Virus record (IMG/VR): IMGVR_UViG_3300029319_000040
Coordinates: 1 to 60,885 of that record
Reading direction: 5' to 3' (one strand)
Length of the DNA stretch: 60,885 bases
Source of the DNA: a virus
The translations under genes and the position numbers were made by a program. Under the pieces are notes generated by a model. It saw only the letters and a list, made by a program, of their open reading frames with translations. It did no database searches and was not told where the DNA came from. This document shows, piece after piece, positions 1-60,885 of the stretch. Position 1 is the stretch's first letter; every line of letters starts with the position of its first letter.

Positions 1-98
1 GACTGGTCGGCATTTTTTTTGTACTAAGAAAGTACAAAAAATATGGGATTACGTCTGCGTTTTTGTACTTTTTAAAAATCACCTTGACAAGTGTGGGA
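1..98. repeat. Left copy of 98-bp end repeat
   Basis: Bases 1-98 are identical to 60787-60884; the next base differs (c at 99, t at 60885). The repeat holds a perfect hairpin (TTTTTTGTACT, loop AAGAA, AGTACAAAAAA, about 10-36) and the decamer TTACGTCTGC at 49-58. The simplest reading is a circular or circularly permuted genome whose contig overlaps itself; direct terminal repeats are the alternative. Confidence 0.9.
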
Positions 99-413: not shown

Positions 414-420
414 TTGGGCC

Positions 421-10953: not shown

Positions 10954-11385
10954 ATGTTCGACATTTTACAAGAAGTCGAACTAAAAGAGCGGCTGGAAAA
11001 CTTTCAAAGTTCTACTGACAAAGGTTATCCTGAATCTGTAACGCCACTTACATACTACACTAAAAAAGAAAATGATAAGATTTTAGCCTACTCTTCTTTT
11101 TCTGATATGGGTGATTTTTACTTTGTAGGTAACACTTACGTTATGCCGCATAGTAGAGGGCAAGGAATATACGGTAGATTACTAACTAGCAGAAATAAAC
11201 ACCTGTCTGACAAACCAAAGGTAACTCTTGTGAATCCAATCGAGGGTACAGATATAGAAATACTAAAAAATCAAGTGGCTAAACAAGGCGGTGTAGAAGT
11301 TACTTGTTATGAGCAAGTTGCAGATATAATGACCCAAGACCTTTACAAAACACTATGTTGTTTGCCGGTCTACATATACAGGTGA
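10954..11385 (+). CDS. GNAT-family acetyltransferase-like protein
   Basis: 143 aa with the acetyl-CoA pyrophosphate loop SRGQGIYGRLL (about 69-79) after a beta strand, as in GNAT motif A. Shorter than typical GNATs but with the core present. SD GAGGTGA precedes the ATG. Inserted between structural genes, it could modify a virion or host protein; the substrate is unknown. Confidence 0.6.
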   Translation: MFDILQEVELKERLENFQSSTDKGYPESVTPLTYYTKKENDKILAYSSFSDMGDFYFVGNTYVMPHSRGQGIYGRLLTSRNKHLSDKPKVTLVNPIEGTDIEILKNQVAKQGGVEVTCYEQVADIMTQDLYKTLCCLPVYIYR

Positions 11386-11389
11386 TACC

Positions 11390-43553: not shown

Positions 43554-44447
43554 TCATTCTACACACTCCCTTACAAAATTGGCGAGTATAAGGTCCGACG
43601 ATATGCCGGAAATGAGGTCGCGTTGTGCATTTATCAACGCATTGACGATTAGTAGTTTCGATTCTTGTTTTGCATCAGATTCTACCATGTAGTCAAAGAT
43701 GCCTCGTAGAGTATCTGCTAAGGGTTGCCCTTTGATAATCTTCAATGCGCCATCGAAGGACTTCTCTCGTACTGCTACACGAAGGAACTTAGCGTAGTCC
43801 ACAACGGGAGTATCTAAGGAAAACAAGAACTTGTCTTTGTCTGCACCATAATTAACATATGCTTGTAAGAAATTTATAGCAGAGCGAGCATCGCTATGAT
43901 GTTTTGCTATACGCTGAATAGTATCGTCCATCCTAACGAAACCAGCGACGTTTTCTTTGAGTGTTATCTCCCGTAAAATCCTTGCTATATCCCCTTTATA
44001 GTAAGGGCGGAAATGTATTACTTTGCATCGCGATTGTAGCCAAGGAGAAACCTTAGCGAGATTGTTACAAGTCAATATGAAATAACCATGAGCATTCTCC
44101 ATAACTCCTTTGAGAGCGGATTGGGCCGCATCAGTCAATTGGTCTGCCTCATCAAGTAGGAAAATTTGTTTGTCATTACCTGTTCTCGTTCTAGGGATTA
44201 GTTCTTCTTCGATGAACCCAATACCCCTCTCATTCCTAGTAGAAGCATTGAACACATGAAGTTGCATCCCAAACTCATTAGCCAAAACGCGAGCAATAGT
44301 AGTTTTCCCTGTACCCGGTTCTTGAGAATGAAACAAGAAATTCTGCGATACATAACCCATATTCTCAAATTGGGCTACAATATCATCACGACCTATCACA
44401 TCTTTGAATGTGGTGGGCCTATGCTTCTGTGACCATATCTCAGTCAT
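43554..44447 (-). CDS. rfcS: Replication factor C small subunit (clamp loader)
   Basis: 297 aa AAA+ ATPase. WSQKHRPTTFKDVIG opens the family; Walker A EPGTGKTT (43-50), Walker B IFLLDEAD (95-102) and SRC (139-141) are present, followed by the lid and collar. Loads the PCNA-like clamp. No recognised large subunit is seen; the 45483-46157 product is the only weak candidate. ATG overlaps the upstream stop by one base. Confidence 0.93.
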   Translation of the reverse strand: MTEIWSQKHRPTTFKDVIGRDDIVAQFENMGYVSQNFLFHSQEPGTGKTTIARVLANEFGMQLHVFNASTRNERGIGFIEEELIPRTRTGNDKQIFLLDEADQLTDAAQSALKGVMENAHGYFILTCNNLAKVSPWLQSRCKVIHFRPYYKGDIARILREITLKENVAGFVRMDDTIQRIAKHHSDARSAINFLQAYVNYGADKDKFLFSLDTPVVDYAKFLRVAVREKSFDGALKIIKGQPLADTLRGIFDYMVESDAKQESKLLIVNALINAQRDLISGISSDLILANFVRECVE

Positions 44448-44695
44448 TATTCACCACCACAAATCCTGTGTTCTTCTGGTAGATGCTTAACTCGCTTTTC
44501 ACGCATACCTCTCAAAATATCCTTAATGTTTTTTAGTGCCGTGTTATATCTTTTGACTGCTACACTATCACCCATCGGTACTAAACCATCTTCTGCCAAT
44601 TCTTGAGTGCTAGTATAATCATAGCCCTCTTCATCACCAATCAACATATTCAGTATTTCCCATTCAACGTGTTTCACACTCTTTGCTCTAATCAT
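44447..44695 (-). CDS. Hypothetical protein (82 aa)
   Basis: Helical protein (VEWEILNMLIGDEEGYD..., ALKNIKDILRGMREKR) that ends in CGGE, encoding the SD for RFC. It is the first gene after the P1 composite promoter. No family recognised. Confidence 0.6.
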   Translation of the reverse strand: MIRAKSVKHVEWEILNMLIGDEEGYDYTSTQELAEDGLVPMGDSVAVKRYNTALKNIKDILRGMREKRVKHLPEEHRICGGE

Positions 44696-44732
44696 TCATC
44701 ATTCCCCCTTACATATTGTACTCGACCAGTAA

Positions 44733-44766
44733 GGTTATAAACATTACGGTTAGCAGTAAGAGTGTG
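44733..44766 (-). promoter_or_regulatory. Composite promoter P1
   Basis: CACACTCTTACTGCTAA (44750-44766) followed by TTTATAACC (44733-44741). Drives 44447-44695 and RFC. The boxed motif directly precedes the coding end of 44772-45170. Confidence 0.7.
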
Positions 44767-44771
44767 TCGCC

Positions 44772-45170
44772 TCATGAGCGAATACAATGAAGACAAACTT
44801 GTGATTCTGGTGGGAAAACTCGGTTTCGGCCACATACTGAACACTTCTCCATCTTACTCTTTTCTTTTGGTGTTGCTACGCTAGGACTTCTTGTATATGT
44901 GATGTCGTCCTTACTGTGTATCAACTCCCTATTAATATCATATATCGCGTGTTTGGATTTAACTCCTACGGCGTTTTCTACCTTTTCACTCCCTACTATT
45001 ATGACCTGTGTATTTTTAGCAAGTAAGGAAGACAATGTGTGTGGCGAAGGAACTACTCTAACAGATTTAGTCTGTGTTAGATGTGTAGCCATCTTCTCCT
45101 TCGTCATCGGACCATGCTCCCAAAGCAGGTCTACAATCAACCTACGGATTCTTCGGTTGTTAGCACCCAT
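44772..45170 (-). CDS. Winged-helix + zinc-ribbon protein (132 aa)
   Basis: N-terminal winged-helix-like part (IVDLLWEHGPMTKEKMATHL), TLSSLLAKN and IYDIN, plus a C-terminal CSVC/CLHC zinc ribbon (about 109-130). One of five related proteins in the window. TTAATAAA about 28 bp upstream suggests leaderless transcription. Probably a viral transcription regulator. Confidence 0.7.
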   Translation of the reverse strand: MGANNRRIRRLIVDLLWEHGPMTKEKMATHLTQTKSVRVVPSPHTLSSLLAKNTQVIIVGSEKVENAVGVKSKHAIYDINRELIHSKDDITYTRSPSVATPKEKSKMEKCSVCGRNRVFPPESQVCLHCIRS

Positions 45171-47028: not shown

Positions 47029-47099
47029 TTAGTTCTCTCCCACTTACAGTGCAAACATTCCCTATGCTTTGAAATCATTCCACAACATTGACATCTCAT
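47025..47099 (-). CDS. Cys-rich microprotein (24 aa)
   Basis: CQCC (3-6) and CLHC (15-18): two Cys knuckles in 24 residues, enough for one zinc ion. ATG overlaps the stop of 47096-47362 (ATGA) and its own TGA overlaps the next ATG (ATGA). Tight overlaps at both ends support translation. Confidence 0.5.
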   Translation of the reverse strand: MRCQCCGMISKHRECLHCKWERTK

Positions 47100-47362
47100 T
47101 CTTCTTCCCCCCTTACAACATCCCAAATGTAAACAGTACCTTGCATACCACTTTTGTAAAATCTAGCATCCTTCTTTAGCCATCTCGCGGCCTGATTGAT
47201 AGTAACACCAGCCCTTGATGAACAAATAGATTTACCGTTCTTGAAAGTAGCGTAACGTAAAACTTGCCTCAAGGTGCAAGGTCCGTTATGCAATAAATAT
47301 TCGTACATAGCATCCACCGCCCAAGGCGTTGTTCTTTTAGCCCTTGAAGTTCTAGGACTCAT
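47096..47362 (-). CDS. Winged-helix-like protein (88 aa)
   Basis: AMYEYLLHNGPCTLRQVLRY, then AGVTINQAARWLKKDARF and VYIWDV, the pattern shared with four other proteins here. Likely DNA-binding. The C-terminal EEE encodes an SD. Confidence 0.65.
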   Translation of the reverse strand: MSPRTSRAKRTTPWAVDAMYEYLLHNGPCTLRQVLRYATFKNGKSICSSRAGVTINQAARWLKKDARFYKSGMQGTVYIWDVVRGEEE

Positions 47363-48693
47363 TCTTGTTCACCCCAAGGATTAGGCCCGCGCTCATTTGT
47401 AACAGGTCCGATACGACACATAACACCTCGTCGCCCTCTACCTTTCTTAGCCGAAGGCTCATACTCTCTATACCAAGGCTGCCCTTGTAGATTCTCAATA
47501 ATCCAACGCTTTGCTGATTGATAGTCACCAGCAGTAACCATACGAGAAACCTCTTTGATAAGTGTGGACTTTGTAATATCTTGCATCCAAAACGCATCTT
47601 TCATGAGTAGTGTGTCTGCATCCATAACTCTCCTTCTCATCATCAAGGACTTGGCTAGAATATCTTCTAGTCGCTCATCCATAGTTACAAGCAACGGTTC
47701 ACCCCCACGATAATTTGGACTCATCATGTGGTAGCCTATTGCTATACGCCTAAAAAGGTCTGCCTCAAACGAGCGTACCTTTGGTGATTCCAACCATGCT
47801 AAGATAGAGTCATCAAACAAAACACCGCTAGGAGGATTAGCCACCGCATCATCTAATCTAGTTCGTAACCATCCTTTGATTGCTATGGCCTTTTCTGCCA
47901 ACGATACCCTTTCCTCGGTAGTCATGTTAGATTGAGCGTGTTGCGCTCTTTTGAAAGCCAACTCTTTCTCATCACTCATCTCAATATCTATGATAAAGAA
48001 ACGACGGTCAAGACCAGAATCTAACTCAAATCTAGCAGGTTGCGTACCAGCCCAAACAGTGTAGCGAGTAGTGTACTGAACCCAACCAGCCTTCATACCT
48101 TTCTGCACTCTACCATTATCTAATGATGTAAGAAGTTGGTTTTTCATATCTAGGCTATGGTCTTTCTTGGAGGCATCAGACATAGATGAGAACTCTTCAA
48201 AACCAAGGAACCCACCGCATAGTTCTCTAGCGATAGGTCTGCCCATGATGTCGCCATCTTCATTCACTGAACCAAACATACCTGCTTCTGTTATACTGTT
48301 CGGTCCCATCATAGTTCTAAATCCTTCTCCCAAATCAGCGTTGAAATTATGAAGGAGTCCAGTGCCTTCTGCTAGGAACATAAGAATCAAAACCGATTTA
48401 CCAGAACCCTTTGCACCACGAAGCATGATGTGGATTCTTGTATCAGGTAGTTGCGACATCGGAGTGTAGAACGGTATGTTACTATGTCTCAAAGGACAAG
48501 AGGTAATAGTAAAATCATTCTCTGCATCTACTAATGGAGATTCGGGGTCGAAGTCACATCTACTGCATTTGTTTAGTGCATTGAAGATATGCGCGCCAAC
48601 AGAACAAACGAATATAGGTATCTTATCATCTACACCAACATAGTGATTTCTTTTAGCGAAATCCTTTACCTCTTCTATTATATCGAAACTCAT
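47359..48693 (-). CDS. MCM-like AAA+ helicase
   Basis: 444 aa. A short N-terminal domain with Cys at 30, 43, 46 and 66 (zinc) is followed by Walker A GAKGSGKS (93-100), Walker B-like FLGFEE (162-167), sensor VWAGTQ (about 213-218) and LDRRF (228-232) as Arg finger, in MCM order. A wing-like C-terminus follows. The MCM N-terminal region is shorter than in cellular MCMs. The likely replicative helicase. Confidence 0.8.
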   Translation of the reverse strand: MSFDIIEEVKDFAKRNHYVGVDDKIPIFVCSVGAHIFNALNKCSRCDFDPESPLVDAENDFTITSCPLRHSNIPFYTPMSQLPDTRIHIMLRGAKGSGKSVLILMFLAEGTGLLHNFNADLGEGFRTMMGPNSITEAGMFGSVNEDGDIMGRPIARELCGGFLGFEEFSSMSDASKKDHSLDMKNQLLTSLDNGRVQKGMKAGWVQYTTRYTVWAGTQPARFELDSGLDRRFFIIDIEMSDEKELAFKRAQHAQSNMTTEERVSLAEKAIAIKGWLRTRLDDAVANPPSGVLFDDSILAWLESPKVRSFEADLFRRIAIGYHMMSPNYRGGEPLLVTMDERLEDILAKSLMMRRRVMDADTLLMKDAFWMQDITKSTLIKEVSRMVTAGDYQSAKRWIIENLQGQPWYREYEPSAKKGRGRRGVMCRIGPVTNERGPNPWGEQE

Positions 48694-49490
48694 ATGTGAT
48701 AGCCCCCACTACTGTCATTCTCATCAAAGAAAGGAGGATTCAATCTGCCGTCGGTTTCAAAGGAGTTCAATATACCTCTGAACTCATTTACTGTTGTAGA
48801 ATCAGAATCAACCTTTAGTCCCAAACTATCTGAATAGAAATCTATTAGATGTTGAACGGCCACTTCATCTACGCCCATATTGTCACTCTTAACACAAATC
48901 AACATAGACAAATAACCATTACCACTATCTCTATCTGTTAGTTTAGCGTAAAGTTCACAGAATATCCAACAAGGGGTCATCAGTCCTAGTTCGCTATTCT
49001 GCACCCCACCTTTCATATCTTTGTCGTGGAAATCATACATAATCAAATCAGAGCCACCGATTGCCTTTTCACTATGGGCAACAGAAGTAAGCATGAATAA
49101 CTGCTCTACACCTAATTCCAAAAACAAATTGACTACATCTCTAGCCATAGGATAACACCACAACCAATTAGTAGTATCTGTTGGAGTATTAGGTTCAGGC
49201 CAATTCGTCAATCTAAGGAGGTAAATTCTATCCCCCTCTTCATCTTCTAATTCGTACACAAGCCAGCAAGGTTCTAACAAATCTGGAATAGCGTTGAAAG
49301 GCTCGACAGATTGATACCTTGAGTAAATCCTAGCGACGGGTTCTCTACCACCGATAACACTCATGGAAGATACCAAAGAAGCATGACCTGACTCTCCCTG
49401 CATAAATATAATCAGAGCAGAAGGTTTTGTTTCATGCGCCTTATCTGTCCATATAACATCAATATCTTCGTAACTCTCCATCTCAGGCAT
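48690..49490 (-). CDS. PAC2-family-like protein (266 aa)
   Basis: ALIIFMQGESGHASLVSSM, then GREPVARIYS, LVYELEDEEG...LLRLTNWP and VVNLFLELGVEQLFML follow the order of motifs in PAC2 (proteasome-assembly-chaperone-like) proteins of archaea. The acidic C-terminal part differs. ATG at 49490 is preferred over GTG at 49502. It sits beside the helicase, and a link to proteasome or protein turnover would be new for a virus; the assignment is from pattern memory. Confidence 0.45.
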   Translation of the reverse strand: MPEMESYEDIDVIWTDKAHETKPSALIIFMQGESGHASLVSSMSVIGGREPVARIYSRYQSVEPFNAIPDLLEPCWLVYELEDEEGDRIYLLRLTNWPEPNTPTDTTNWLWCYPMARDVVNLFLELGVEQLFMLTSVAHSEKAIGGSDLIMYDFHDKDMKGGVQNSELGLMTPCWIFCELYAKLTDRDSGNGYLSMLICVKSDNMGVDEVAVQHLIDFYSDSLGLKVDSDSTTVNEFRGILNSFETDGRLNPPFFDENDSSGGYHI

Positions 49491-49491
49491 A

Positions 49492-49965
49492 TCAATCACC
49501 ACCGTCTTTACCCAAAACCTGTTCGGATATTAATAACTGTATAGAATCTGCCATACTCTTAGGTAATTGTTCTAAGGTAGATACTCGGTGTTTAGTCGAG
49601 TCTTCATACCATACTGCCATTTCTTCAATGCTTACTGCTTGATATACAGGTATAGGTGTAGTGTAACGAGAATAAGTTTTCATCGTACTACCTTCTGGTA
49701 TTGTTCTTCTGCTAGATTTTTCTTCTCCTATCTTACGAAAGAATTTATTCTTAGACAGTATTTGAGTTACTTGATTAGTAGTGTAAGACCCTTGGTTTTT
49801 TCCATAAACATAAGTCTCCCCTTTGTTAGTCTTTCTAGTTTTAGTCGATTCTAGTTCTTTCAAGTGTTCTATAATCTCATGAGTATTAGCACTCCCCACT
49901 TCATTTAAGAAGTTCCAAATTTTCATTTTCAACTTACTGTGTCTACATCTTCTTCTATTTGCCAT
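49492..49965 (-). CDS. Winged-helix-like protein (157 aa)
   Basis: KIWNFLNEVGSANTHEIIEHL and TTNQVTQILSKNKFFRKIG match the shared family pattern; the middle is basic, the C-terminus is acidic and ends GKDGGD. ATG at 49965 has GGAGAGTGA upstream; the in-frame GTG at 49974 is less likely. Confidence 0.65.
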   Translation of the reverse strand: MANRRRCRHSKLKMKIWNFLNEVGSANTHEIIEHLKELESTKTRKTNKGETYVYGKNQGSYTTNQVTQILSKNKFFRKIGEEKSSRRTIPEGSTMKTYSRYTTPIPVYQAVSIEEMAVWYEDSTKHRVSTLEQLPKSMADSIQLLISEQVLGKDGGD

Positions 49966-49974
49966 TCTTTTCAC

Positions 49975-51306: not shown

Positions 51307-51615
51307 TTACAACCCCCTTTCCTTCTTGATGTTTCTTAGAACTCTAGCAAATGCCTTCCACTTCTTGTTGTATTCTCTTGTAAATTGTGAATTGTTAGGC
51401 GGCTTGACTCCGACCCACGGAGCGATACCTAAGATAACATTCTCAAGCATCTTTATTTGATGTTGGTCATAATCATTAATCACCGATTCAAAAACACTAT
51501 CCTCCATTTTACAGTTAGGACATAATACATACCCTTCTTCATCGGGTAATGTGTCCTCTTTAGATGTAGCCTCAAATTTCTCAAAGCAACCTTCACAAGT
51601 CATTGTTATGCCCAT
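51307..51615 (-). CDS. Zinc-ribbon protein (102 aa)
   Basis: CEGC (about 7-10) and CPNC (about 31-34) form a ribbon, followed by helices. ATG at 51615 overlaps the preceding TGA (TGATG), which decides the start. Confidence 0.65.
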   Translation of the reverse strand: MGITMTCEGCFEKFEATSKEDTLPDEEGYVLCPNCKMEDSVFESVINDYDQHQIKMLENVILGIAPWVGVKPPNNSQFTREYNKKWKAFARVLRNIKKERGL

Positions 51616-51929
51616 CAGATAGTCACCCCCAACCATTCTTCTGCCTCTTGTAAATCTTTGAGTCTGTAAGTCAATACTAGATTAGATTGCTTGTACACTG
51701 ACCCCTTTTCTATACCATGCCAGCCTCTCATTAGATTACCAATGGTTCTAACACTAGGTAGATTGAAACCGATAGAATGAATCTGTCTTTTTGAATTGTC
51801 CCTTCTTTGTGCAATTATACCAATTATTTCATCTGCTGAAATAAATTCAGTACCGTTGTCTGCTTCTTCTTTCAAGGCTCTAAGTATAGCCTTCCTCACT
51901 CTAATATGTTTTCTTTGTCGCTTACGCAT
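51615..51929 (-). CDS. Winged-helix-like protein (104 aa)
   Basis: KAILRALKEEADNGTEFISA, then LPSVRTIGNLMRGWHG and LVLTYRLKD. The same three-part pattern as the other family members, with a more basic N-terminus. It follows composite promoter P2. Confidence 0.6.
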   Translation of the reverse strand: MRKRQRKHIRVRKAILRALKEEADNGTEFISADEIIGIIAQRRDNSKRQIHSIGFNLPSVRTIGNLMRGWHGIEKGSVYKQSNLVLTYRLKDLQEAEEWLGVTI

Positions 51930-51965
51930 CTCTCATTCCTCCTTGTTAAATATACATTCGTGGTC

Positions 51966-52001
51966 AAGTATATAGTACTTGTCATTAGCAGTAAGAGTGT
52001 G
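51966..52001 (-). promoter_or_regulatory. Composite promoter P2
   Basis: CACACTCTTACTGCTAA (51985-52001), 10 bp, TATATACTT (51968-51974), then a leader with AACAAGGAGG. The upstream gene ends at 52002, with its TGA abutting the motif. Drives 51615-51929 and the genes after it. Confidence 0.75.
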
Positions 52002-52130
52002 TCACTCTTCCTCATCGGGCCAACCGCAATAATCGCACCAAGCAGTAGGAGTATCATCGTAATCTCCTTCTATAACAAGAGTGCAATCGCACCTAGGACA
52101 ACTTCTATTTCTAGCATATCCCCAACCCAT
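52002..52130 (-). CDS. Zinc-ribbon microprotein (42 aa)
   Basis: CPRC (11-14) with C16 and CDYC (32-35) form a ribbon; ends PDEEE, then TGA next to promoter P2. ATG at 52130 is 9 bases from GGAGG; an ATG at 52139 is too close. Confidence 0.6.
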   Translation of the reverse strand: MGWGYARNRSCPRCDCTLVIEGDYDDTPTAWCDYCGWPDEEE

Positions 52131-52131
52131 T

Positions 52132-52401
52132 TCATTCATCCTCCATTATTAGTTTCAACATCACTAAGTAACCAATCAAGTCATCTATGATGTCCATATC
52201 ACTCTCAATACTATCGTTACCTCTAGCCAATCGTGATAGTTTGTCATCGATGCGTACTCTAACTCCGGCTTGTGAATCTAACTTTGAGAACAAACGAATA
52301 GGATTGTTCACACTGTCTCCATACTGCTGATTCTTAGCAATCAACAATTGACCTATGCGAGTTAGTAAATTAGTTACTTTAGCAGCGAAAGGGTCACTCA
52401 T
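52132..52401 (-). CDS. Nucleotide-modification-associated (DUF1599-like) protein (89 aa)
   Basis: KNQQYGDSVNNPIRLF, then RVRIDDKLSRLARG and DDLIGYLVMLKL match small phage proteins of the Nmad1/DUF1599 type, helical and MazG-like in pattern. ATG at 52401 overlaps the preceding TGA (ATGA). May act on nucleotides; the match is at pattern level. Confidence 0.55.
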   Translation of the reverse strand: MSDPFAAKVTNLLTRIGQLLIAKNQQYGDSVNNPIRLFSKLDSQAGVRVRIDDKLSRLARGNDSIESDMDIIDDLIGYLVMLKLIMEDE

Positions 52402-52898
52402 GCTATCGCCCCCTTCCACCATGAAGGGGCAGGTCGTCCCTTCTGCCACTTAGCAAACGTCTTGGAATGATAGTATGCTCGGTATGCTTTGACTGCATCT
52501 GCATCTTTGAACTCATCCGGCATAGCCTGAGCGAAGGGAGTCAATGGGCCTTCGGGAATCAAGTGAGCCATGTTAGATAGTATCTCGATACCATCAGCAC
52601 AAAAATGAGTCTTGTCGAATCTCTTGGTGTATTCTTCTGCTAATGCGGCGGCATGATAACAAGCCCAAATGAAATTGTCTCTTGAGTCACCACAAAAACG
52701 GGTCGCGGGATGATTGTGGTAGCCACCCTTGAGAGGCGTACCTTTCTTAGTAAGAGGCATCTGCTCTGGTGTAGCACCATGTCTGATGACGGCACTACCT
52801 AGTTGCTGGTAAAGTTCTACAACCATCTTAGGTACGTGCTTGTCGCAATACATTTTGGCCGATACAATCGGGTCTTCATCTAGTACAAATATGTTCAT
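52398..52898 (-). CDS. Conserved phage protein with HP motif (166 aa)
   Basis: MNIFVLDEDPIVSAKMYCDK, then HNHPATRF...SRDNFIWACYHA and EYTKRF resemble a protein frequent in marine phage genomes, of unknown function. His/Cys spacing may bind metal. The ATG at 52898 is preferred for its SD AAGGAGG 9 bases upstream. Confidence 0.6.
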   Translation of the reverse strand: MNIFVLDEDPIVSAKMYCDKHVPKMVVELYQQLGSAVIRHGATPEQMPLTKKGTPLKGGYHNHPATRFCGDSRDNFIWACYHAAALAEEYTKRFDKTHFCADGIEILSNMAHLIPEGPLTPFAQAMPDEFKDADAVKAYRAYYHSKTFAKWQKGRPAPSWWKGAIA

Positions 52899-52899
52899 C

Positions 52900-53277
52900 T
52901 CATTCATCCTCCTTGGTGCGGTCAGAGGTGGCTAGTGCCTCCCCCGACAACGATTCTGCTACTTGACTGTTGGATATAAATGTTTCTGTATTTACTATAT
53001 CCCAAACTTTTCTAGTAACTTTACCTTCTCCAGTGTAACTAAAAACTCTCACTGTTTCATTAGAATGAAATCTAGGGTCACGCTTTAGAACAGTGGTCAA
53101 TGATATAGGTGAACACGGAGAAATCTTTGGCATAGAACCATCTACATTTCTAACTGAGGTGTATAACTCATGAGCAGTAGCCGGTCCATAATCACGAATG
53201 TAATCATAACATCGGTCACGATAATTACTGTACTTGATAGCAAAGCCACCATACTTTTTTTCTGCTCTACCCATCAT
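52900..53277 (-). CDS. Winged-helix-like protein (125 aa)
   Basis: YDYIRDYGPATAHELYTSVR, then ISLTTVLKRDPRFHSN and TRKVWDIV show the shared pattern most clearly. ATG overlaps the preceding TGA (ATGA). Acidic tail KEDE is SD-encoded. Confidence 0.65.
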   Translation of the reverse strand: MMGRAEKKYGGFAIKYSNYRDRCYDYIRDYGPATAHELYTSVRNVDGSMPKISPCSPISLTTVLKRDPRFHSNETVRVFSYTGEGKVTRKVWDIVNTETFISNSQVAESLSGEALATSDRTKEDE

Positions 53278-53519
53278 TCTTCCTCCAGCATGGTTTTGTA
53301 CTCTTCTTCTCCTTCATTTTCCATAGCCACAATCAATTGTTTCATTTCATAAACTCTTTTGGTTCTACTCCAAAGTTTGTAGGCATTATCGCTCATCTTT
53401 TCTAATTCCTCAAGAGTATATCTATTCAAAATTCTGCTGGGCATCCTTTCTTTCATATAATAAACTAAGTCGTCTATCCATTCCCATTCAATCGGTTTCA
53501 TTCCTAACATATCATTCAC
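53274..53519 (-). CDS. Hypothetical helical protein (81 aa)
   Basis: Follows composite promoter P3. Helical, with WIDDLVYYMKERMPS... and a highly acidic C-terminus (EGEEEYKTMLEEE). No family recognised. Confidence 0.6.
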   Translation of the reverse strand: MNDMLGMKPIEWEWIDDLVYYMKERMPSRILNRYTLEELEKMSDNAYKLWSRTKRVYEMKQLIVAMENEGEEEYKTMLEEE

Positions 53520-53820
53520 TCTCCTTGGTATTTATCCATTCTTGGTAATGCTTATAGTCTTTTTCATCAACAGTAAGAGTGTGTACATCTCGATAGTTTG
53601 CTCTGTGAACCCCGATGTCATATTCTACATCTACTGAATACAAAAACTCCCTGATTGTTTTATCGTCTATCTTATTACTTTGTAAAAGTTCATCAAGAAC
53701 ACAAACTATAACCCTTCTATCTGCATCGCTACCGTTCATAGCAGTATCAAGTATCTTAGAGAACTTGTTGAATCTAAGACTTTTCATCTTGATTAAGTGT
53801 GCATACTCTACTTCATCCAT
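53512..53820 (-). CDS. Hypothetical protein with promoter-encoded segment (102 aa)
   Basis: The segment VHTLTVDEKDYKHY (about 79-92) is encoded by promoter P3 and is followed by INTKESE. The first 75 residues are helical. Reads like several other genes whose 3' ends carry a promoter. Confidence 0.6.
   Translation of the reverse strand: MDEVEYAHLIKMKSLRFNKFSKILDTAMNGSDADRRVIVCVLDELLQSNKIDDKTIREFLYSVDVEYDIGVHRANYRDVHTLTVDEKDYKHYQEWINTKESE
53550..53583 (-). promoter_or_regulatory. Composite promoter P3
   Basis: CACACTCTTACTGTTGA (53567-53583), then GACTATAAGC (53550-53559), then a leader with GAATGGATAAATACCAAGG. Lies inside the coding end of 53512-53820 and serves 53274-53519. Confidence 0.75.
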
Positions 53821-54024
53821 TCAGTCCATCTCCTGTACTATCTCTTCAATCCACTCTAACTGCTTATCTACATCAGCATGATATATTCTCTGATAGAACT
53901 CAAAGAAGTCATGTACAGTATTCTCTCCGAACTCATGAATCATGTATTCGATGTTTTCTCGGTCCATCTTTGTTACATCAACTGCAACATGAACTGCAAG
54001 TGCTTTCATTTCGTGATAACTCAT
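53821..54024 (-). CDS. Hypothetical helical protein (67 aa)
   Basis: ATG at 54024 overlaps the preceding TGA. Helical, with VHVAVDVTKMDRENIEYMI and an acidic C-terminus. No family recognised. Confidence 0.6.
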   Translation of the reverse strand: MSYHEMKALAVHVAVDVTKMDRENIEYMIHEFGENTVHDFFEFYQRIYHADVDKQLEWIEEIVQEMD

Positions 54025-54155
54025 TCTATCGCCTCCCATGTGAGGTCAAGTCCTTGCTCGACTATCGCCTTCGCTATAAGATATTGCTCATAAGTTATAC
54101 TCTTTCCAGAACGATGTAAGTTCAATCCGTAAAACACAGTTTCGCTCATACTCAT
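54021..54155 (-). CDS. Small hypothetical protein (44 aa)
   Basis: ATG at 54155, TGA overlapping the next ATG (ATGA). Helical, with a Lys/Ser-rich middle. The ATG at 54149 is an alternative start. Confidence 0.5.
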   Translation of the reverse strand: MSMSETVFYGLNLHRSGKSITYEQYLIAKAIVEQGLDLTWEAIE

Positions 54156-54156
54156 T

Positions 54157-54696
54157 CTACCACAACCATCCTAAGAATCTTCTGATTAGACCAACCTTTC
54201 TATGTAGGAGTGAATGATGTTCAGCAGTAATTGAGTCAAAACAGGCTTGTAGTTCTTCTAGTTGATTTTCTAGTGCTTCGACTCTATCTTCTAAGTCATC
54301 GTACTCTAAACCTTCTTTGATAATATCATAATCAATGTGGTCATCAATATCAAAATTATTCCACGCGGACTCGATAATACAATCTTCGATGTTGTATCTG
54401 ATGGTATCATAGTCTAAGTGGTCATTGACTTGTTCAAGAATGTCATCCTCAATGTTATATCTAATATCATTAGCATCGATGTAATCAATAACATCAATGT
54501 AATCGGACAAATCCATGTTACCCATAAAGTTCTCAATGATAGGCTCTACCTCGGTTTCTAAATCACATTCAATATACTCCCCGAAATTAGTATTCTCAAG
54601 ATGGCAGTCTACTGCTTTCTGAACCCATTCGGTATTAACCTCATCTATCACTCCTTCAATTATCGTTCTTTCGTTTATGTCTATTTCTATCTTCAT
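54157..54696 (-). CDS. Acidic protein with internal repeats and coiled coil (179 aa)
   Basis: Imperfect repeats of a D/I/Y-rich unit with IRYNIED occur twice (about 72-110), with DYIDVIDYID-like turns. A coiled coil (DRVEALENQLEELQACF) precedes a basic and hydrophobic C-terminus (FLGWLW). Strongly acidic, so perhaps a DNA-mimic or scaffold; that is inference. Confidence 0.6.
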   Translation of the reverse strand: MKIEIDINERTIIEGVIDEVNTEWVQKAVDCHLENTNFGEYIECDLETEVEPIIENFMGNMDLSDYIDVIDYIDANDIRYNIEDDILEQVNDHLDYDTIRYNIEDCIIESAWNNFDIDDHIDYDIIKEGLEYDDLEDRVEALENQLEELQACFDSITAEHHSLLHRKVGLIRRFLGWLW

Positions 54697-54708
54697 TTCA
54701 ATCACTCC

Positions 54709-54936
54709 TTATTCTTCCTCACTACTGCTCGGACAATTAGAACTACCAGTCTCAGGTATATAACTGTTGTCGTCAGCAGTAAGAGTGTGTTCGTCTTCTT
54801 TCTTGTTCAGGTGGATATGTGGAATCATTACATCTCTAATACATCTCATACAGACATAATCTCCACCAAAGACTAATGTTAGGACATTACCTTCGCCACA
54901 AAGACAACATGAATGATATTGTAATCCAGTTTCCAT
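54709..54936 (-). CDS. Zinc-ribbon protein with promoter-encoded tail (75 aa)
   Basis: CCLCGE (about 9-12) and CMRC (about 28-31), then HLNKKEDEHTLTADDNSYIP, whose last part is read from composite promoter P4. ATG at 54936 overlaps the preceding TAA. Ends SSEEE. Confidence 0.6.
   Translation of the reverse strand: METGLQYHSCCLCGEGNVLTLVFGGDYVCMRCIRDVMIPHIHLNKKEDEHTLTADDNSYIPETGSSNCPSSSEEE
54755..54789 (-). promoter_or_regulatory. Composite promoter P4
   Basis: CACACTCTTACTGCTGA (54773-54789), then GTTATATACC (54755-54764). Entirely within the coding region of the gene ending at 54709; drives 54157-54696. Confidence 0.75.
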
Positions 54937-55322
54937 TATTCTTCCTCCCCCCAATTATTTTCAGCGTTGTAATTATAATCCTTCTTGTGGCAGAACCAAA
55001 CCGTACAACCTGTATTGTGTATTTTAGCGTAACAAACAATACTCGACCTGTAATTGAAATAATCCTGATATTGTCCTAAAGTGTTACATAGATTGTCTGT
55101 GAAAGATTTTAGCGAACCAAACTTTATGTGTGGAGAAGGTATATCCAGTGAATTATAAGCACCAAATATAGCCCTAAAGTATTTTACATCACTAGGATGA
55201 CTAGCATCACGTTTAGCCTTCCGTACCAATTTCATGACATCATCCGCATTATCAAACGGACCTTGCCAATCGCTGTCTTCTACATCATCCCAATCTAATG
55301 TGTATGTTATTTTCTGTTTCAT
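54936..55322 (-). CDS. Hypothetical protein (128 aa)
   Basis: Alpha/beta, Trp/Asp-rich N-terminus (LDWDDVEDSDWQGPF). The C-terminus (NWGEEE) encodes the SD of the next gene. No family recognised. Confidence 0.55.
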   Translation of the reverse strand: MKQKITYTLDWDDVEDSDWQGPFDNADDVMKLVRKAKRDASHPSDVKYFRAIFGAYNSLDIPSPHIKFGSLKSFTDNLCNTLGQYQDYFNYRSSIVCYAKIHNTGCTVWFCHKKDYNYNAENNWGEEE

Positions 55323-55687
55323 TATTCTTCACTCTCCCTGTTTGTTCTCATTTCCCATTTCTTCTTAGGTGTAATCAATTTTCTAAAGTAGCATCCTTCA
55401 TGAGTATCTATGTGGCCCAATGAATCAAGCCACCGTACGATTTCTACATCTAAGTTACTTGTGCCGTCATAGTCGTATAGCAATCCGTTCTCATTAAGAT
55501 ATAGTCCTCCATCACCATAGAATTCATCTCCACTTGTTTCCTTATCATAGATTTCAAATCCACCTCGGCCCTTTTCTTCATTGACCCATGCTTTAATTTT
55601 CATGGTTGTTTCTACTCTAGGAGTAGCACCCCATGAGCCTTCATAACAAACAAAGCAAACTACTTCTGTATCTAAACGCTCGGTCAT
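55322..55687 (-). CDS. Hypothetical protein (121 aa)
   Basis: Beta-rich, with AWVNEEKGRGGFEIYDKET and a C-terminal ESEE. ATG and upstream stop overlap (ATGA). Function unknown. Confidence 0.55.
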   Translation of the reverse strand: MTERLDTEVVCFVCYEGSWGATPRVETTMKIKAWVNEEKGRGGFEIYDKETSGDEFYGDGGLYLNENGLLYDYDGTSNLDVEIVRWLDSLGHIDTHEGCYFRKLITPKKKWEMRTNRESEE

Positions 55688-55938
55688 TCTTGTTCACCTT
55701 CCTTGAAAACTGCTTCAACATCGGGGGCATATTCTACAACCCATTCTTTGTATTTTCTTAGACTTTTGATTTCCTCTAATAACTCTAGGTTGTGTTCTTT
55801 GTGGATTCGTAAGTGTTGTTCAAGATTGCATATATCATTCTCATACCTTGTCATTTCCAAATGATAAATCTTTACAACATCATTAACGGCATCTTTTATT
55901 CTCTTCGCGCTTCTATCTATTTCTTCTACGTTTCTCAT
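55684..55938 (-). CDS. Coiled-coil protein (84 aa)
   Basis: Helical with heptads (ICNLEQHLRIHKEHNLELLE) and an acidic C-terminus EGEQE. ATG overlaps the preceding TGA. Function unknown. Confidence 0.6.
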   Translation of the reverse strand: MRNVEEIDRSAKRIKDAVNDVVKIYHLEMTRYENDICNLEQHLRIHKEHNLELLEEIKSLRKYKEWVVEYAPDVEAVFKEGEQE

Positions 55939-56135
55939 TCTATCATCTCCCTTATTTTAATCATTTGGACTCTATTGTGAATATGAGTTTCCTCTTTCAT
56001 TTCATCCCAATATCCAGAGGACAAAATGTTCACAATCCAATCAGCCATTTCACCGATTGAAGCATTAACTACTAAGTCCTTGTAAATATCAATCCATTCT
56101 TCATGCTTGTTTATTATCTCTTGTACTCTTGTCAT
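55935..56135 (-). CDS. Hypothetical helical protein (66 aa)
   Basis: Follows composite promoter P5. Helical, with HEEWIDIYKDLVVNASIGEM. No family recognised. Confidence 0.6.
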   Translation of the reverse strand: MTRVQEIINKHEEWIDIYKDLVVNASIGEMADWIVNILSSGYWDEMKEETHIHNRVQMIKIREMIE

Positions 56136-56170
56136 TCAATCATCTCCTTCTTATCTAACGATTCTCCCTC

Positions 56171-56206
56171 AAGTATATGAATCTTCTGATTAGCAGTAAG
56201 AGTGTG
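56171..56206 (-). promoter_or_regulatory. Composite promoter P5
   Basis: CACACTCTTACTGCTAA (56190-56206), then TTCATATACTTGAG (56171-56181), then a leader with AGAATCGTTAGATAAGAAGG. Just downstream of the ArdC-like gene; drives 55935-56135. Confidence 0.75.
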
Positions 56207-56213
56207 CTAATCA

Positions 56214-57251
56214 TTATTCTTCCTCCTTCTTATCTTCTTCTTTGAAACCGAACACATCAGGCATCAGTAGTTCACAAGCCCTTTGAGCCTTTGAAGCAGA
56301 ACTGTTGATGAACTTAGCACCACCATCCTTAGCCTCTTTGATAGCCTTTAGCCAACTTTGAAGATATGATGCTGAATTTTCTAGTCCTTCCTCAAGAGCC
56401 TTCCCTTCGATTCCAGCACCCATACAGAGCATAGCCGCACCCATCTCAGCAACCAGTTCTTCTCTAGCATAATCCTCGCCTCCAAACATTCCACTCAAGT
56501 CCCTATCTAATCTTGAAGCATGACCAGTCCAATGAACTGCCTCATGGAAAGCAGTACCAACTCGACCTTCTGCCGTCTTGAATAAATCTCTGTTGGGGAG
56601 ATGGATATAATCTTGACTAGGTGAATAGTATGCTCTACCCTGCTTTGATTCTCTAAAGTCGATTTCCAAATCCTCTACCATTTTATCGAATATCCTTTCA
56701 GCATCAATGATAGCCATTTCCTTTTTCTTCTTCTCTTCCTTCTTGGTCATCTTAGGCTTCTCAATCGGTGGCAGACCTGTTTCTGCTCTGTTGAATACTA
56801 AGAAATACTTAGGATGGAATGAGTGTCTAACTCTTTCTTCTCCAGTCACCTCATCTTCTTCAATCCACCTAGACTTCTTCCAATAGACAACGGGATGAGA
56901 CTTAGCACCTTTCTGAACTCCAAAGTATTCGTCGGAACCGATAGATTTAGCGTGTTGTTCTCCCTTCTTCTTCCAGATATTGTAAGTACCCCACTGATTA
57001 TCGACATAATTATTTTCATCCCGAACTATACTTAGATACCAGACATTAGTGCCTCGATATGATTTACCAGTAGATGCTGAAACAGGTAGGTCTGTACCAA
57101 ACATTCCGAATGATTGACCACCCTTCCAAGGTTTGTTCCAAGGTCGGACTCCCTTCTCCAGATTTTCGATTATCTTTGATGCTACTTTCTTATGAACATC
57201 TAAAGCCTTCTGTCTTGCATTTCCTTTCTTCTTTGTTTTCGTTCTAGCCAT
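56214..57251 (-). CDS. ArdC-like antirestriction protein (345 aa)
   Basis: N-terminal ArdC-type domain (LDVHKKVASKIIENLEKGVR, then PWNKPWKGG and SYRGTNVWYL). The C-terminal zincin-like domain has FHEAVHWTGH (about 231-240) and YAREELVAEMGAA, the HExxH and distal Glu. The family binds single-stranded DNA and protects incoming DNA from restriction. Basic N-terminus; Lys/Glu-rich insert at about 165-180. Follows composite promoter P6, so probably early. Confidence 0.85.
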   Translation of the reverse strand: MARTKTKKKGNARQKALDVHKKVASKIIENLEKGVRPWNKPWKGGQSFGMFGTDLPVSASTGKSYRGTNVWYLSIVRDENNYVDNQWGTYNIWKKKGEQHAKSIGSDEYFGVQKGAKSHPVVYWKKSRWIEEDEVTGEERVRHSFHPKYFLVFNRAETGLPPIEKPKMTKKEEKKKKEMAIIDAERIFDKMVEDLEIDFRESKQGRAYYSPSQDYIHLPNRDLFKTAEGRVGTAFHEAVHWTGHASRLDRDLSGMFGGEDYAREELVAEMGAAMLCMGAGIEGKALEEGLENSASYLQSWLKAIKEAKDGGAKFINSSASKAQRACELLMPDVFGFKEEDKKEEE

Positions 57252-57293
57252 ATTAGTTGCCTCCTTCTGTTGTTATTTTACCATTCGTGGTAT

Positions 57294-57328
57294 CGTTTAT
57301 AGTCTCTTCGGTCTGCACTAAGAGTGTG
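57294..57328 (-). promoter_or_regulatory. Composite promoter P6
   Basis: CACACTCTTAGTGCAGA (57312-57328), then GACTATAAACG (57294-57304), then a leader with GGTAAAATAACAACAG and an SD. Begins two bases after the stop of 57330-57587 and drives the ArdC-like gene. Confidence 0.75.
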
Positions 57329-57329
57329 T

Positions 57330-57587
57330 TCATTCTACCACCTGCCCTCTCTTGATAATTTCTGACTGTGTGATTGTGAAATCTCCCAATCTATCAGAGT
57401 GTCCACTAACTTGATAACCCTGAGATAACATACGCTCTGCTGATTTTCTCCAATATCCTTTTCCATCATCGGAAAAAGAATAACCCGGAATGAACTTTCT
57501 ATCTTGAAATACATAGTCTAAAGCCCCCTTCCTAGTAGTGAAAACCAAAGCACCATAATTGGCATCAGTTACAACATAAACACTCAT
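57330..57587 (-). CDS. Hypothetical protein (85 aa)
   Basis: Beta/alpha protein with VVTDANYGALVFTTRKGALD and a C-terminus leading into promoter P6. ATG overlaps the stop of a microprotein. Function unknown. Confidence 0.6.
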   Translation of the reverse strand: MSVYVVTDANYGALVFTTRKGALDYVFQDRKFIPGYSFSDDGKGYWRKSAERMLSQGYQVSGHSDRLGDFTITQSEIIKRGQVVE

Positions 57588-57658
57588 GCTAACACCTCTT
57601 CACCATCTTCAACAAGTTCTTGAATAATCTTAAGCATTTCATCAGATATATCACTCAT
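57584..57658 (-). CDS. Acidic microprotein (24 aa)
   Basis: MSDISDEMLKIIQELVEDGE... a single amphipathic helix. Its ATG overlaps the upstream stop and its stop overlaps the next ATG (both ATGA), the pattern of translated coupled genes. Confidence 0.45.
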   Translation of the reverse strand: MSDISDEMLKIIQELVEDGEEVLA

Positions 57659-57918
57659 TCTTCCTCGCCTCCAAACTTAATCCTTATGTGTTCTTCAACA
57701 GATATATTTTCATCTCCATGAACCATCATCATGTATTCTCTGAAACCGGATGGGTCATAAAATGCCATTTCATTACAATGTGCTATTTCATCAAACCTCT
57801 GTGCCTTTATCGTTCTACAATCTGCACAAATATGTCTTTCCTCGGCAGTAGTCGGCATCTTCTCATAGAACAATATTGGTTGTCCACATTCTGTACAAGT
57901 ATATGGTGTTCTTCTCAT
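57655..57918 (-). CDS. Zinc-ribbon protein (87 aa)
   Basis: CTEC (8-11) and CADC (31-34), then helices, and C-terminal GGEEE. A DnaK-suppressor-like or ribbon type is possible from the Cys spacing. Function unknown. Confidence 0.65.
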   Translation of the reverse strand: MRRTPYTCTECGQPILFYEKMPTTAEERHICADCRTIKAQRFDEIAHCNEMAFYDPSGFREYMMMVHGDENISVEEHIRIKFGGEEE

Positions 57919-57919
57919 C

Positions 57920-58147
57920 TTAGTTGCCTCCTGTGACTTGGATTATCTCTCCTTCAAACGGATTGTCAATCTTCTCATCTCTACCCTTTCCAGTTATCAA
58001 GTTGAAGTTACAAAGCATCCAGACAATTCCAGCAGAAGTATAACCTTGCTTGGCAAGTTTGATTATCTTCTCTGTCATTATCTTGTCTGCTTCATCCTCA
58101 ATTTCATTTTTCATTTGTTCTAGTTCTTTCATTGTTATCTCCATCAT
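57920..58147 (-). CDS. Hypothetical helical protein (75 aa)
   Basis: Follows composite promoter P7. Helical coiled N-terminus (KELEQMKNEIEDEADKIM). ATG overlaps the preceding TGA (ATGA). Confidence 0.6.
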   Translation of the reverse strand: MMEITMKELEQMKNEIEDEADKIMTEKIIKLAKQGYTSAGIVWMLCNFNLITGKGRDEKIDNPFEGEIIQVTGGN

Positions 58148-58464
58148 ACCAACTCCTTCTTGTTATTTACCGATTCTCGCTCAACTATATTAATATTGTC
58201 ATCAGCAGTAAAAGTGTGTTCCGAATATCTCCTTTCGATTTTCTGAATCAATCTCTTTCTTGAATCTGATATTTCTAAGTCTGCACCATTCCAACCATTG
58301 ATTCCTTTGCATTCTCCATATGAAACCCACATTGTATATCCACCAAACAATCCATCAGAATACCAACCTCTATTTTGTAGTAGATGTCTTTTTTCTTGAC
58401 TGTCTGTGTAAATCCACAGATTTCCTTTGCCATATCTATTTTTACCTGCATTTTCCAAACTCAT
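58144..58464 (-). CDS. Hypothetical protein with promoter-encoded tail (106 aa)
   Basis: LWIYTDSQEKRHLLQNRGWY in the N-terminal half, and RYSEHTFTADDNINIVE in the tail, read from promoter P7. ATG at 58464 overlaps the preceding TGA. Function unknown. Confidence 0.6.
   Translation of the reverse strand: MSLENAGKNRYGKGNLWIYTDSQEKRHLLQNRGWYSDGLFGGYTMWVSYGECKGINGWNGADLEISDSRKRLIQKIERRYSEHTFTADDNINIVERESVNNKKELV
58185..58218 (-). promoter_or_regulatory. Composite promoter P7
   Basis: CACACTTTTACTGCTGA (58202-58218), one change from consensus, then AATATTAATATAG (58185-58197), then a leader with GAATCGGTAAATAACAAG and an SD. Within the coding end of 58144-58464; drives 57920-58147. Confidence 0.7.
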
Positions 58465-58643
58465 TCTGATTGCCTCCTTGCTACATCTGAAACTATACAT
58501 CTGATTTGAGCATCATCAAACTCGCCTCTTTGGTGCATTTTATCTATTGTCCGAATCAAGTCGTAAGCCACATCTCTATCTCCTTCAAGACATTCTGTTA
58601 GTATTCTAGCCAATCTATTATAGTTCATTTCATCATTATCCAT
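58461..58643 (-). CDS. Hypothetical helical protein (60 aa)
   Basis: Helical, with ARILTECLEGDRDVAYDLI. ATG 58643 directly follows the TAA of the preceding gene. No family recognised. Confidence 0.6.
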   Translation of the reverse strand: MDNDEMNYNRLARILTECLEGDRDVAYDLIRTIDKMHQRGEFDDAQIRCIVSDVARRQSE

Positions 58644-58931
58644 TTATTCATCCCCCTTACATTTACATTCATTTTCCAATCCTAATCCGAAGACATCAAC
58701 AATATGTCTCGGTGGATTAGGTGCATTTGGAATACAGTTGAAGCAACAGAATATACTTGGGTTTTCATCTACTAATGTTCTGATAAAACCTCCTAATTCC
58801 TCTATTCTGCTTTCATATTTTTTAGTCCATTCCGACCCATTTTCAATGATTTGATTTCTCTGTTCATAGGCCGATTCTAGTCGTTCTTCTAGTCTTTGTA
58901 TTTCTATTTCTAATTCTTTCTTGGTTGGCAT
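58644..58931 (-). CDS. Coiled-coil protein with Cys tail (95 aa)
   Basis: Heptad-rich N-terminus (ELEIEIQRLEERLESAYEQR), then CCFNC and a CKCKGDE end. Follows composite promoter P8. Function unknown. Confidence 0.6.
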   Translation of the reverse strand: MPTKKELEIEIQRLEERLESAYEQRNQIIENGSEWTKKYESRIEELGGFIRTLVDENPSIFCCFNCIPNAPNPPRHIVDVFGLGLENECKCKGDE

Positions 58932-58968
58932 CTCGCATTCCTCCTTGTTATTTTACAATTATTCCCTA

Positions 58969-59003
58969 AGTACTTAAACCTTCCTATCAGCACTAAGAGT
59001 GTG
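58969..59003 (-). promoter_or_regulatory. Composite promoter P8
   Basis: CACACTCTTAGTGCTGA (58987-59003), then GGTTTAAGTACTT (58968-58979), then a leader with GTAAAATAACAAGGAGG. Overlaps the coding end of 58974-59498; drives 58644-58931. Confidence 0.7.
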
Positions 59004-59498
59004 TTCTTTGTTACAATCGCCACAGAGAACCATTCTCGGTCCTCTCTCTGGTATGTGCATTGAGATATGAGTTATGTTTGCCGGATTTGCATTTCCTTTG
59101 CATTTCTTACATTGAATCCTTCTCAAAGCCAATCTATGACCAATCGGTATTGAATCAGCAGAAATCATATCTTTAGTCAATTCAGCCAACTTTTTACGAA
59201 TCCTAGTGGTTTTGGTTTTGACCTTGATTTTCCTTTTGAATTCTTTGCCTGATAATGGGTCATTCATCTTGATTACTAATTCTGCCCTTGCTTTTGTTGT
59301 ATCTGTATTTCGATGTTTCAACAATGCTTTAGTCTGATTTTTACGATTGGAATGTTTGCCTCGATTTTCAGGAATATCGAATGGGAAACAATCTCGACAT
59401 AATTGTTCATCAACATCAACACGTTTGTAGCATTGAGTTCTTCTTGAACAATTTTCGCCTTTGCATTTTCTTGAACCAATTCTAATTATCTCATTCAT
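58974..59498 (-). CDS. Basic zinc-finger protein (174 aa)
   Basis: Two Cys clusters: C12, C17, C23, C34, C37 near the N-terminus and CKKC plus CGDC in the last 45 residues. The middle is Lys/Arg-rich (KRKIKVKTKTTRIRKKLAEL). The tail EHTLSADRKV is read from promoter P8. Likely nucleic-acid binding. Confidence 0.65.
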   Translation of the reverse strand: MNEIIRIGSRKCKGENCSRRTQCYKRVDVDEQLCRDCFPFDIPENRGKHSNRKNQTKALLKHRNTDTTKARAELVIKMNDPLSGKEFKRKIKVKTKTTRIRKKLAELTKDMISADSIPIGHRLALRRIQCKKCKGNANPANITHISMHIPERGPRMVLCGDCNKEHTLSADRKV

Positions 59499-60320: not shown

Positions 60321-60351
60321 GTGTTTGGCCGTTTTTTCGATTTTGAGGCAT

Positions 60352-60569
60352 TTCGTACTTAAATTGTTACTTTTGGGGCATCATTTTGTATCACTGGTGA
60401 AGGTTGTATCTATTTTGATTCCTATGAAAAAGTGGTTTCAAATCGAATATGAGGTAGTGAAATCAACCTCTGATTGATAATTATTTATGGTAGAATTGTA
60501 ACATTTTGATGATAGAAAATGACTGAAAAACCTACCATCACAACTAAGCAATAGCAGATTTCAAGACAT
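60352..60569. other. Non-coding AT-rich right region
   Basis: No gene supported. AT-rich, without the T-tract GTAC repeat until 60570. Forms part of the large gene-free region with 1-606. Confidence 0.4.
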
Positions 60570-60786
60570 ATTTTTTTGTACTTTTATTTTATCTCAAAAA
60601 AAATTAACAATATTTTTTTGTACTTTTTGTTTTCTCTACCAAAAAAGGTACAAAATTTTTTTGTACTTTTATTTTATTTCTCTAAAAAATAACATTTTAT
60701 TTTTTTTGTACTTTTATTTTTTGCGTCGAAAAAATAACAAAATTTTCAAAAATGTTAATTTTCGCCTGTATTTTATAACTTCGTTA
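60570..60786. repeat. Tandem 43-bp T-tract GTAC repeats
   Basis: Units starting at 60570, 60612, 60655 and 60699 (spacing 42-44 bp) each begin ATTTTTTTGTAC followed by T-rich sequence. Three of them continue into an A-run with a TTAAC or TAAC end; the unit at 60612 ends AGGTACAAAA instead. The same core starts the end repeat at about 60798. These look like iterons of a candidate replication origin. Confidence 0.65.
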
Positions 60787-60885
60787 GACTGGTCGGCATT
60801 TTTTTTGTACTAAGAAAGTACAAAAAATATGGGATTACGTCTGCGTTTTTGTACTTTTTAAAAATCACCTTGACAAGTGTGGGAT
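60787..60885. repeat. Right copy of 98-bp end repeat
   Basis: Identical to 1-98 except for the final base. It is preceded by tcgttaga, and the 31-bp stretch 60781-60811 recurs with two substitutions at 132-162. The element is therefore related to a local repeat family as well as being a possible assembly overlap. Confidence 0.9.

Follow-up and report, generated by a model that had tools for sequence, protein, structure and literature searches.

Why should four unrelated proteins of one virus end in almost the same peptide? The question is raised by IMG/VR virus record IMGVR_UViG_3300029319_000040, analyzed here over its whole length of 60,885 nucleotides (hereafter the window), in which four genes carry such a C-terminus:

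53512..53820, minus strand: tail gene, ending VHTLTVDEKD
54709..54936, minus strand: tail gene, ending EHTLTADDNS
58144..58464, minus strand: tail gene, ending EHTFTADDNI
58974..59498, minus strand: tail gene, ending EHTLSADRKV

The four proteins form separate families by BLAST, and the ends of their open reading frames agree with the first-pass annotation, which had described similar tails on unrelated genes. The answer that we consider very probable is that the tails are overprinted early promoters, each containing an upstream DNA element that is specific to the viral lineage and would be read by a small winged-helix protein encoded by the virus itself.

The element, CACACTCTTASTGCWRA, is present in eight copies in the window, all on the minus strand, and at each of these sites the same layout recurs: element, TATA-like hexamer, ribosome site, start codon. 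The hexamer lies 21-23 nt after the start of CTCTTA at 8 of the 8 counted sites. From this architecture we infer that the element and the TATA-like box together constitute a promoter, with the following candidate composite promoters in the window:

58932..59006, minus strand: element CACACTCTTAGTGCTGA and TATA-like TTTAAG; predicted to drive gene 58644-58931
58148..58221, minus strand: putative promoter of gene 57920-58147; read as tail EHTFTADDNINIVERESVNNKKELV of 58144-58464
57252..57331, minus strand: intergenic; precedes the ArdC-type gene 56214-57251
56136..56209, minus strand: intergenic; precedes gene 55935-56135
54697..54792, minus strand: putative promoter of gene 54157-54696; read as tail EHTLTADDNSYIPETGSSNCPSSSEEE of 54709-54936
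53511..53586, minus strand: putative promoter of gene 53274-53510; read as tail VHTLTVDEKDYKHYQEWINTKESE of 53512-53820
51930..52004, minus strand: intergenic; precedes the winged-helix gene; swapped in place between relatives
44696..44769, minus strand: intergenic; precedes gene 44447-44695, upstream of the clamp-loader gene

The first of these sites illustrates the overlap most directly: the tail EHTLSADRKV of 58974-59498 is encoded by its first part, and the TAA stop codon of that gene falls within the TATA-like box. The initial DNA motif scan, which allowed up to 2 mismatches, returned 5 matches compared with 0 in 100 shuffles, and a second pattern returned 9 matches, on the minus strand only, with 0 for a reversed-pattern control. 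With a looser pattern, 8 of 10 matches on the gene strand of the window had a TATA-like hexamer at +20..24, a spacing found at a background of 1.2-1.3% of positions, and the opposite strand gave 0 matches. The ninth match of the second pattern, at 1828, differs from it at 2 positions, lacks a correctly spaced TATA-like box and was not counted; it is either a decayed promoter or a chance occurrence. The protein encoded at 1803-2132, which overlaps this copy, ends KTLTSDDMNMYLA, and the same end is found in a related contig, G001.

Four of the eight copies lie inside coding 3' ends and four are intergenic (44750, 51985, 56190 and 57312), the latter overlooked by the first-pass annotation, and the DNA is equal in both settings. 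All four tails in the window use a single reading frame for the element. Homologues show what happens to the peptide when the promoter is not there. The G001 relative of 58974-59498 (95% identity over 59 amino acids) ends LCGSCGVVE, with neither tail nor element, and that of 58144-58464 (86%) ends KIERRYVE, is tailless, and is separated from the promoter by two other genes. The gene that stands last before that promoter in G001 (11211-11513), unrelated to 58144-58464, owes its tail, HTLTADDNINIVERELVNNKKELV, to its place in front of the same downstream gene. Relatives of 54709-54936 in G006 and G009 (80 and 82%) end in a different tail, and those of 53512-53820, only 33% identical and 66 residues long, have none. 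The reciprocal case is provided by 54936-55322: in the window this gene stops at NNWGEEE, whereas the G006 and G009 relatives (53 and 52%) extend into a promoter of another type, class B, as TPYEPATENYISVEVED and TPNEPATENYISVEVED.

Codon usage within the tails points in the same direction. All 14 four-fold degenerate codons in the ACT CTT ACT GCT stretch of the four coding copies end in T, whereas the share of T in the called genes of the window, computed for ACN, CTN and GCN codons, is 37-46%; no probability is attached to the comparison, the copies being perhaps related by descent. The differences among the coding copies in this stretch replace L by F, T by S and A by V. In 7 of 8 tail-bearing homologue pairs, the tail showed a lower proportion of synonymous changes than the core, and in 1 a higher one, with the qualification that the tails are short and 3 of the 8 pairs are not independent.

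These observations bear on the possibility that the C-terminus is a functional peptide, for instance a degradation or targeting tag, selected at the protein level, with the likeness of the DNA secondary. The sharing of the peptide, in the same frame, by four unrelated proteins of the window and one of G001 would fit such a tag. The identical DNA occurs four times between genes, however, close homologues lack the tail or have it swapped, wobble bases are fixed while residues vary (L/F, T/S, A/V), and relatives read the element in two to three frames, which together leave this explanation barely credible. As the same DNA occupies coding and intergenic sites, and homologues, the decisive evidence here, lose or swap the tail, selection very probably acts on the DNA and not on the peptide; the DNA is what is conserved and the peptide is a by-product.

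Much of the first-pass annotation is thereby sustained. Its proposal that promoter DNA doubles as a coding tail is supported by the eight sites with a TATA-like box, where promoter activity would follow from the architecture, and its proposal of selection on DNA by homologues that drop or swap the tail when the promoter is absent or replaced. It had suggested that reading frames and codon substitutions would be informative: the window uses one frame in its four tails, class B relatives use two and class D relatives three, and changes in the tail alter amino acids, with all wobble positions T and synonymous change rarer than in the core in seven of the eight pairs. Among the homologues found, none keeps the peptide without the promoter DNA. 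The suggested restriction on C-terminal evolution exists, but only temporarily, tails coming and going with the promoter.

Comparison across relatives revealed one sequence per genome that is common to many small variable genes and differs between viruses (classes A-D and others, the element of the window being class A). G004 and G006, whose polymerases are 91-93% identical to that of the window, use ACCTTACRAACCCGC (class B) at the same promoter position, as does G009, which holds only part of the polymerase gene; all 16 class B sites in the three records have a TATA-like box, and translation of the element in two frames gives tails reading PYEPATE or LTNP. The more distant G008 (polymerase 78%) uses ACCTTACGSTGCGCC (class C), with a box at 10 of 12 pattern matches, and a broad group of records uses ACGCTTGCG (class D). 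The distance from element to box is 21-23 nt in class A (11 sites), 23-25 in B (16), 22-24 in C (10) and mostly 24-27 in D (48). At 2 of the 11 class A sites (window 44750 and the G002 site), our script recognized no ribosome site. Additional elements occur in L192/L202, L111 and L229/L234. In total, 117 sites were scored in 40 records (L106, L107 and L186-L189, copies of G006, G009, G004 and G008, were left out), and 41 of them are read as the end or part of the upstream frame, in 29 protein families; a few of the 41 are doubtful, the frame continuing for many residues. In class D, six families end DACE, DACD or close forms, with frames 0, 1 and 2 all present, and the L111 relative (75-90% identical), which has another element, lacks DDACE.

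Of the 87 gene-strand matches of the class D pattern in 10 loci, 47 have none of the listed TATA hexamers; visual inspection reveals a variant, for example CTTAAAAG, at many of these, and others are coding or chance matches. A TATA-anchored search of loci longer than 8 kb among L106-L265 revealed class D and other elements and no repeated word in most loci, and a de novo word search upstream of genes gave no clear element in G010, G012, G014, G015, G017, G018 and G020. An exact pattern scan of viral contigs found 9 stretches, 2 of which (L009, L010) are relatives; the other 7, of which 5 have one common sequence and 2 another, show no promoter context, look like chance and were set aside.

The type of element does not follow the neighboring genes, given that the replication block of G001 (class A) is closer to that of class B G004 (92.9% DNA identity over 3.3 kb) than to that of the class A window (90.9%). 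Gene 53274-53510 is 81% identical to its G009 relative although the promoters are class A and class B, respectively, the promoter having been exchanged and the body kept. A gene that does change with the element is the following:

51615..51929, minus strand: small winged-helix protein, the proposed reader of the element, assigned from its homologue family, structure model and fold match

In front of this gene, the window and G006 share the upstream sequence TGGCCCGATGAGGAAGAGT, have wholly different elements, share TATATACTTGA, and then differ in the gene itself. The encoded proteins are 34% identical, the second lowest value among 24 shared genes (34-36% between element types A and B), whereas the G006 and G004 proteins are 95% identical, although polymerase identities place the window, G004 and G006 at about the same distance from one another (91-93%). 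A class A-D element stands directly upstream of the gene in 17 of 33 homologues, including the window, G004, G006 and G008. The structure model (predicted local distance difference test score, pLDDT, 85.2; helices H2-24, H32-47 and H60-67, strands E73-80 and E83-90) has a PadR/LmrR-like fold, with Z 9.7 to LmrR over 88 residues at a root-mean-square deviation of 2.8, and a best Foldseek E of 0.0058; Pfam gave no match for this protein and weak helix-turn-helix matches for some family members. VIA-align matches other than those of PadR/LmrR type (ORC, Zur and others) were set aside, as they reflect the common winged-helix arrangement.

Pairs of records were compared on a wider scale with the P-loop protein 47359-48693 as reference, using a different aligner from that of the 24-gene comparison; the pairs are not independent, and an element class was assigned for 16 of the 32 regulator records. 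Where the P-loop proteins were at least 90% identical, regulators were 52-98% identical (mean 72.6) in 8 pairs with the same element vs 38 and 40% in the 2 pairs with different elements; at 80-90%, the means were 47.2 (30 pairs) vs 36.1 (9 pairs). The regulator alignment contained 27 homologues and left out L109 and L199 (start uncertain), L239, L246 and near-copies; L246 was also dropped from one earlier regulator family comparison. No Pfam name was found for 47359-48693, which is called a P-loop protein from its sequence; an earlier label, helicase, had no evidence behind it and was dropped.

By sequence, the region encodes five small winged-helix-like proteins (44772-45170, 47096-47362, 49492-49974, 51615-51929 and 52900-53277), and only 51615-51929 strongly tracks the element type among those compared. 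Close by, 48690-49490 also tracks it, with 39-42% identity of the window to G006/G004 against 90% between those two, and no known family was found for it. The product of 52398-52898 is 94-97% identical across types A and B, has a weak, below-cutoff match to the pyrimidine dimer glycosylase family, and has 106 relatives in viral contigs, 80 of which were kept.

Several points weigh against the assignment and against the reading as a whole. The link between regulator and element comes mainly from one close contrast (A vs B), class C being more distant; the regulator is not alone in diverging between A and B, 53512-53820 (33%) and 48690-49490 (39-42%) doing so too; no class A-D element was seen upstream of 16 of the 33 regulator homologues; and G001 has class A elements, with no regulator gene seen in its partial contig. 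For the tails themselves, 53512-53820 offers no close homologue, and in the pair L207/L214 the tail exceeds the core in synonymous change. The same 16 homologues, together with a reader assignment that comes from sequence and two scans of genome contigs for a host that found nothing, would suit an alternative in which a host transcription factor reads the element, so that elements mark hosts and the winged-helix protein has another job. We regard this as unlikely, given that, between element types, the winged-helix gene diverges much more strongly than most of its neighbors and is exchanged together with its promoter. The protein encoded at 51615-51929 remains our candidate for the reader.

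Whether this candidate would activate or repress is a separate matter. In rudiviruses, the winged helix-turn-helix (wHTH) protein Aca8 is thought to repress early genes with virus-specific sequences, according to PMC11065993, and an Aca-like early-gene repressor is a fair possibility here, if one toward which we do not lean: instead of covering the TATA-like box, the element keeps a constant distance of about two helical turns upstream of it. The fixed distance makes an activator more likely.

The repeats could instead be recombination or replication sites and not promoters, and breakpoints in gene content do fall at these sites, with other dispersed repeats located near the genome ends. Their strict orientation, and the constant spacing of the TATA-like box and the ribosome site, make this very unlikely as the primary role, and recombination may well use the promoter repeats in addition. 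The dispersed repeats comprise TTTTTTGTACTTTT, which occurs about 20 times near the ends of the record (window 1-600, 1540-1660 and 60340-60850), and lineage-specific counterparts, such as GTTTTTGTAACC, with 16 copies in G006 and 64 in G008; they are probably origin-binding or similar sites that also vary by lineage. Although GTTTTTGTAACC is the strongest repeat in both genomes, it was rejected as a promoter element, being dispersed and probably origin-related.

In the mechanism that we propose for the translated promoters, each early gene or small operon would have its own composite promoter, about 75 bp long. In it, the element characteristic of the lineage would come first, with a TATA-like box following after 21-23 nt and then an initiator, a ribosome site and, last, the start codon. 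Tight gene packing would often place this promoter within the 3' end of the preceding gene, where the ribosome would read the element as codons up to the next stop, generating the HTLTADD-type tails; upon loss or exchange of the promoter, the peptide would be lost or replaced by that of another lineage. The winged-helix protein, its own gene behind the same element, would read the element and act on a basal TBP/TFB promoter, more likely as an activator. A broader proposal, which we advance tentatively and rate slightly short of evenly balanced, is that close archaeal viruses differ in specificity much as immunity types do, the regulator and the cognate promoters scattered over each genome (8-10 or more) having switched together. 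Such a switch would rewrite the C-termini of many unrelated proteins, making them a label of regulon type, and cassettes with the wrong element would be silent, limiting trade in early, probably anti-defence, genes.

The gene content of the window is that of a tailed virus, with the following genes besides those above:

window: terminase and portal genes, by PHROG matches
window: family B polymerase gene (polB) and clamp-loader gene
window: ERCC4-type nuclease gene
56214-57251, minus strand: ArdC-type antirestriction gene, directly behind an intergenic copy of the element

Together with the TATA-like boxes, this set of terminase, portal and replication genes makes a magrovirus-related virus with a marine archaeal host the most likely identity of the window. 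No close named relative was found among the phage genomes searched, and no host contig in the two scans of genome contigs. We infer that the minus-strand genes from ~44 to 60 kb are the early genes. A repeat is common to both ends of the record and G001 spans the junction between start and end, so the genome is circular or permuted. The position of the ArdC-type gene behind an element suggests that its uncharacterized early neighbors are anti-defence genes; PADLOC found no defence-related match among 8 early proteins.

If these interpretations hold, a C-terminal motif common to several proteins of a compact virus can be translated promoter DNA, a warning for motif searches, and the system offers a clean natural experiment on DNA-level selection within coding sequence. 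Regulators paired with their sites, in some cases in viruses whose neighboring proteins are 97% identical, may serve as a model for changes of regulon specificity in viruses known from metagenomes only, and the element as a marker of early, probably anti-defence, genes.

Among known systems, the promoter early stem-loops (PeSL) of T4-type phages are promoter cassettes that may provide homology for the shuffling of early genes; they are bacterial promoters of sigma-70 type with stem-loops, unlike the element described here, and to our knowledge have no translated tails. No literature was found that joins Poseidoniales, virus, promoter and TATA, and the word "promoter" is absent from the magrovirus survey PMC10160649. 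Reporter assays identified the class I intergenic repeats of halovirus HF2, which are 56-58 bp long and located among early and middle genes, as promoters (PMC8707807). They resemble the present case in being repeated sequences in the early region of an archaeal tailed virus; as described there, they are intergenic and conserved in position within the genus, whereas half of the copies in the window are coding and close relatives differ in their element. The stoperators of Cluster A mycobacteriophages (PMC6550527) are many asymmetric sites, mostly in one orientation, that change jointly with the repressor, much as the site sequence here differs in step with a putative regulator; they belong to bacterial phages and, as described there, have no fixed distance from promoters, unlike the sites analyzed here.

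The nearest described case is that of the Aca8-type early regulatory sequences. In crenarchaeal viruses, PMC11065993 describes an own early regulatory sequence per virus around a TATA/BRE (B recognition element) core, the core being constant and the flanks variable, and an Aca8 (wHTH) gene always preceded by the virus's own regulatory sequence. By that description, the two systems share a virus-specific sequence common to early genes and a constant core promoter with flanks that vary between viruses; the position of the wHTH gene behind this sequence is the rule there, and here a putative counterpart follows a class A-D element in 17 of 33 homologues. The Aca8 systems so described belong to rudiviruses, lipothrixviruses and other crenarchaeal viruses, whereas the present virus is tailed, and its element, set ~22 nt ahead of the box, is swapped in place between relatives with many proteins 91-97% identical and is translated as protein tails. 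The new parts are the overprinted tails and the in-place exchange of the element and its putative regulator.

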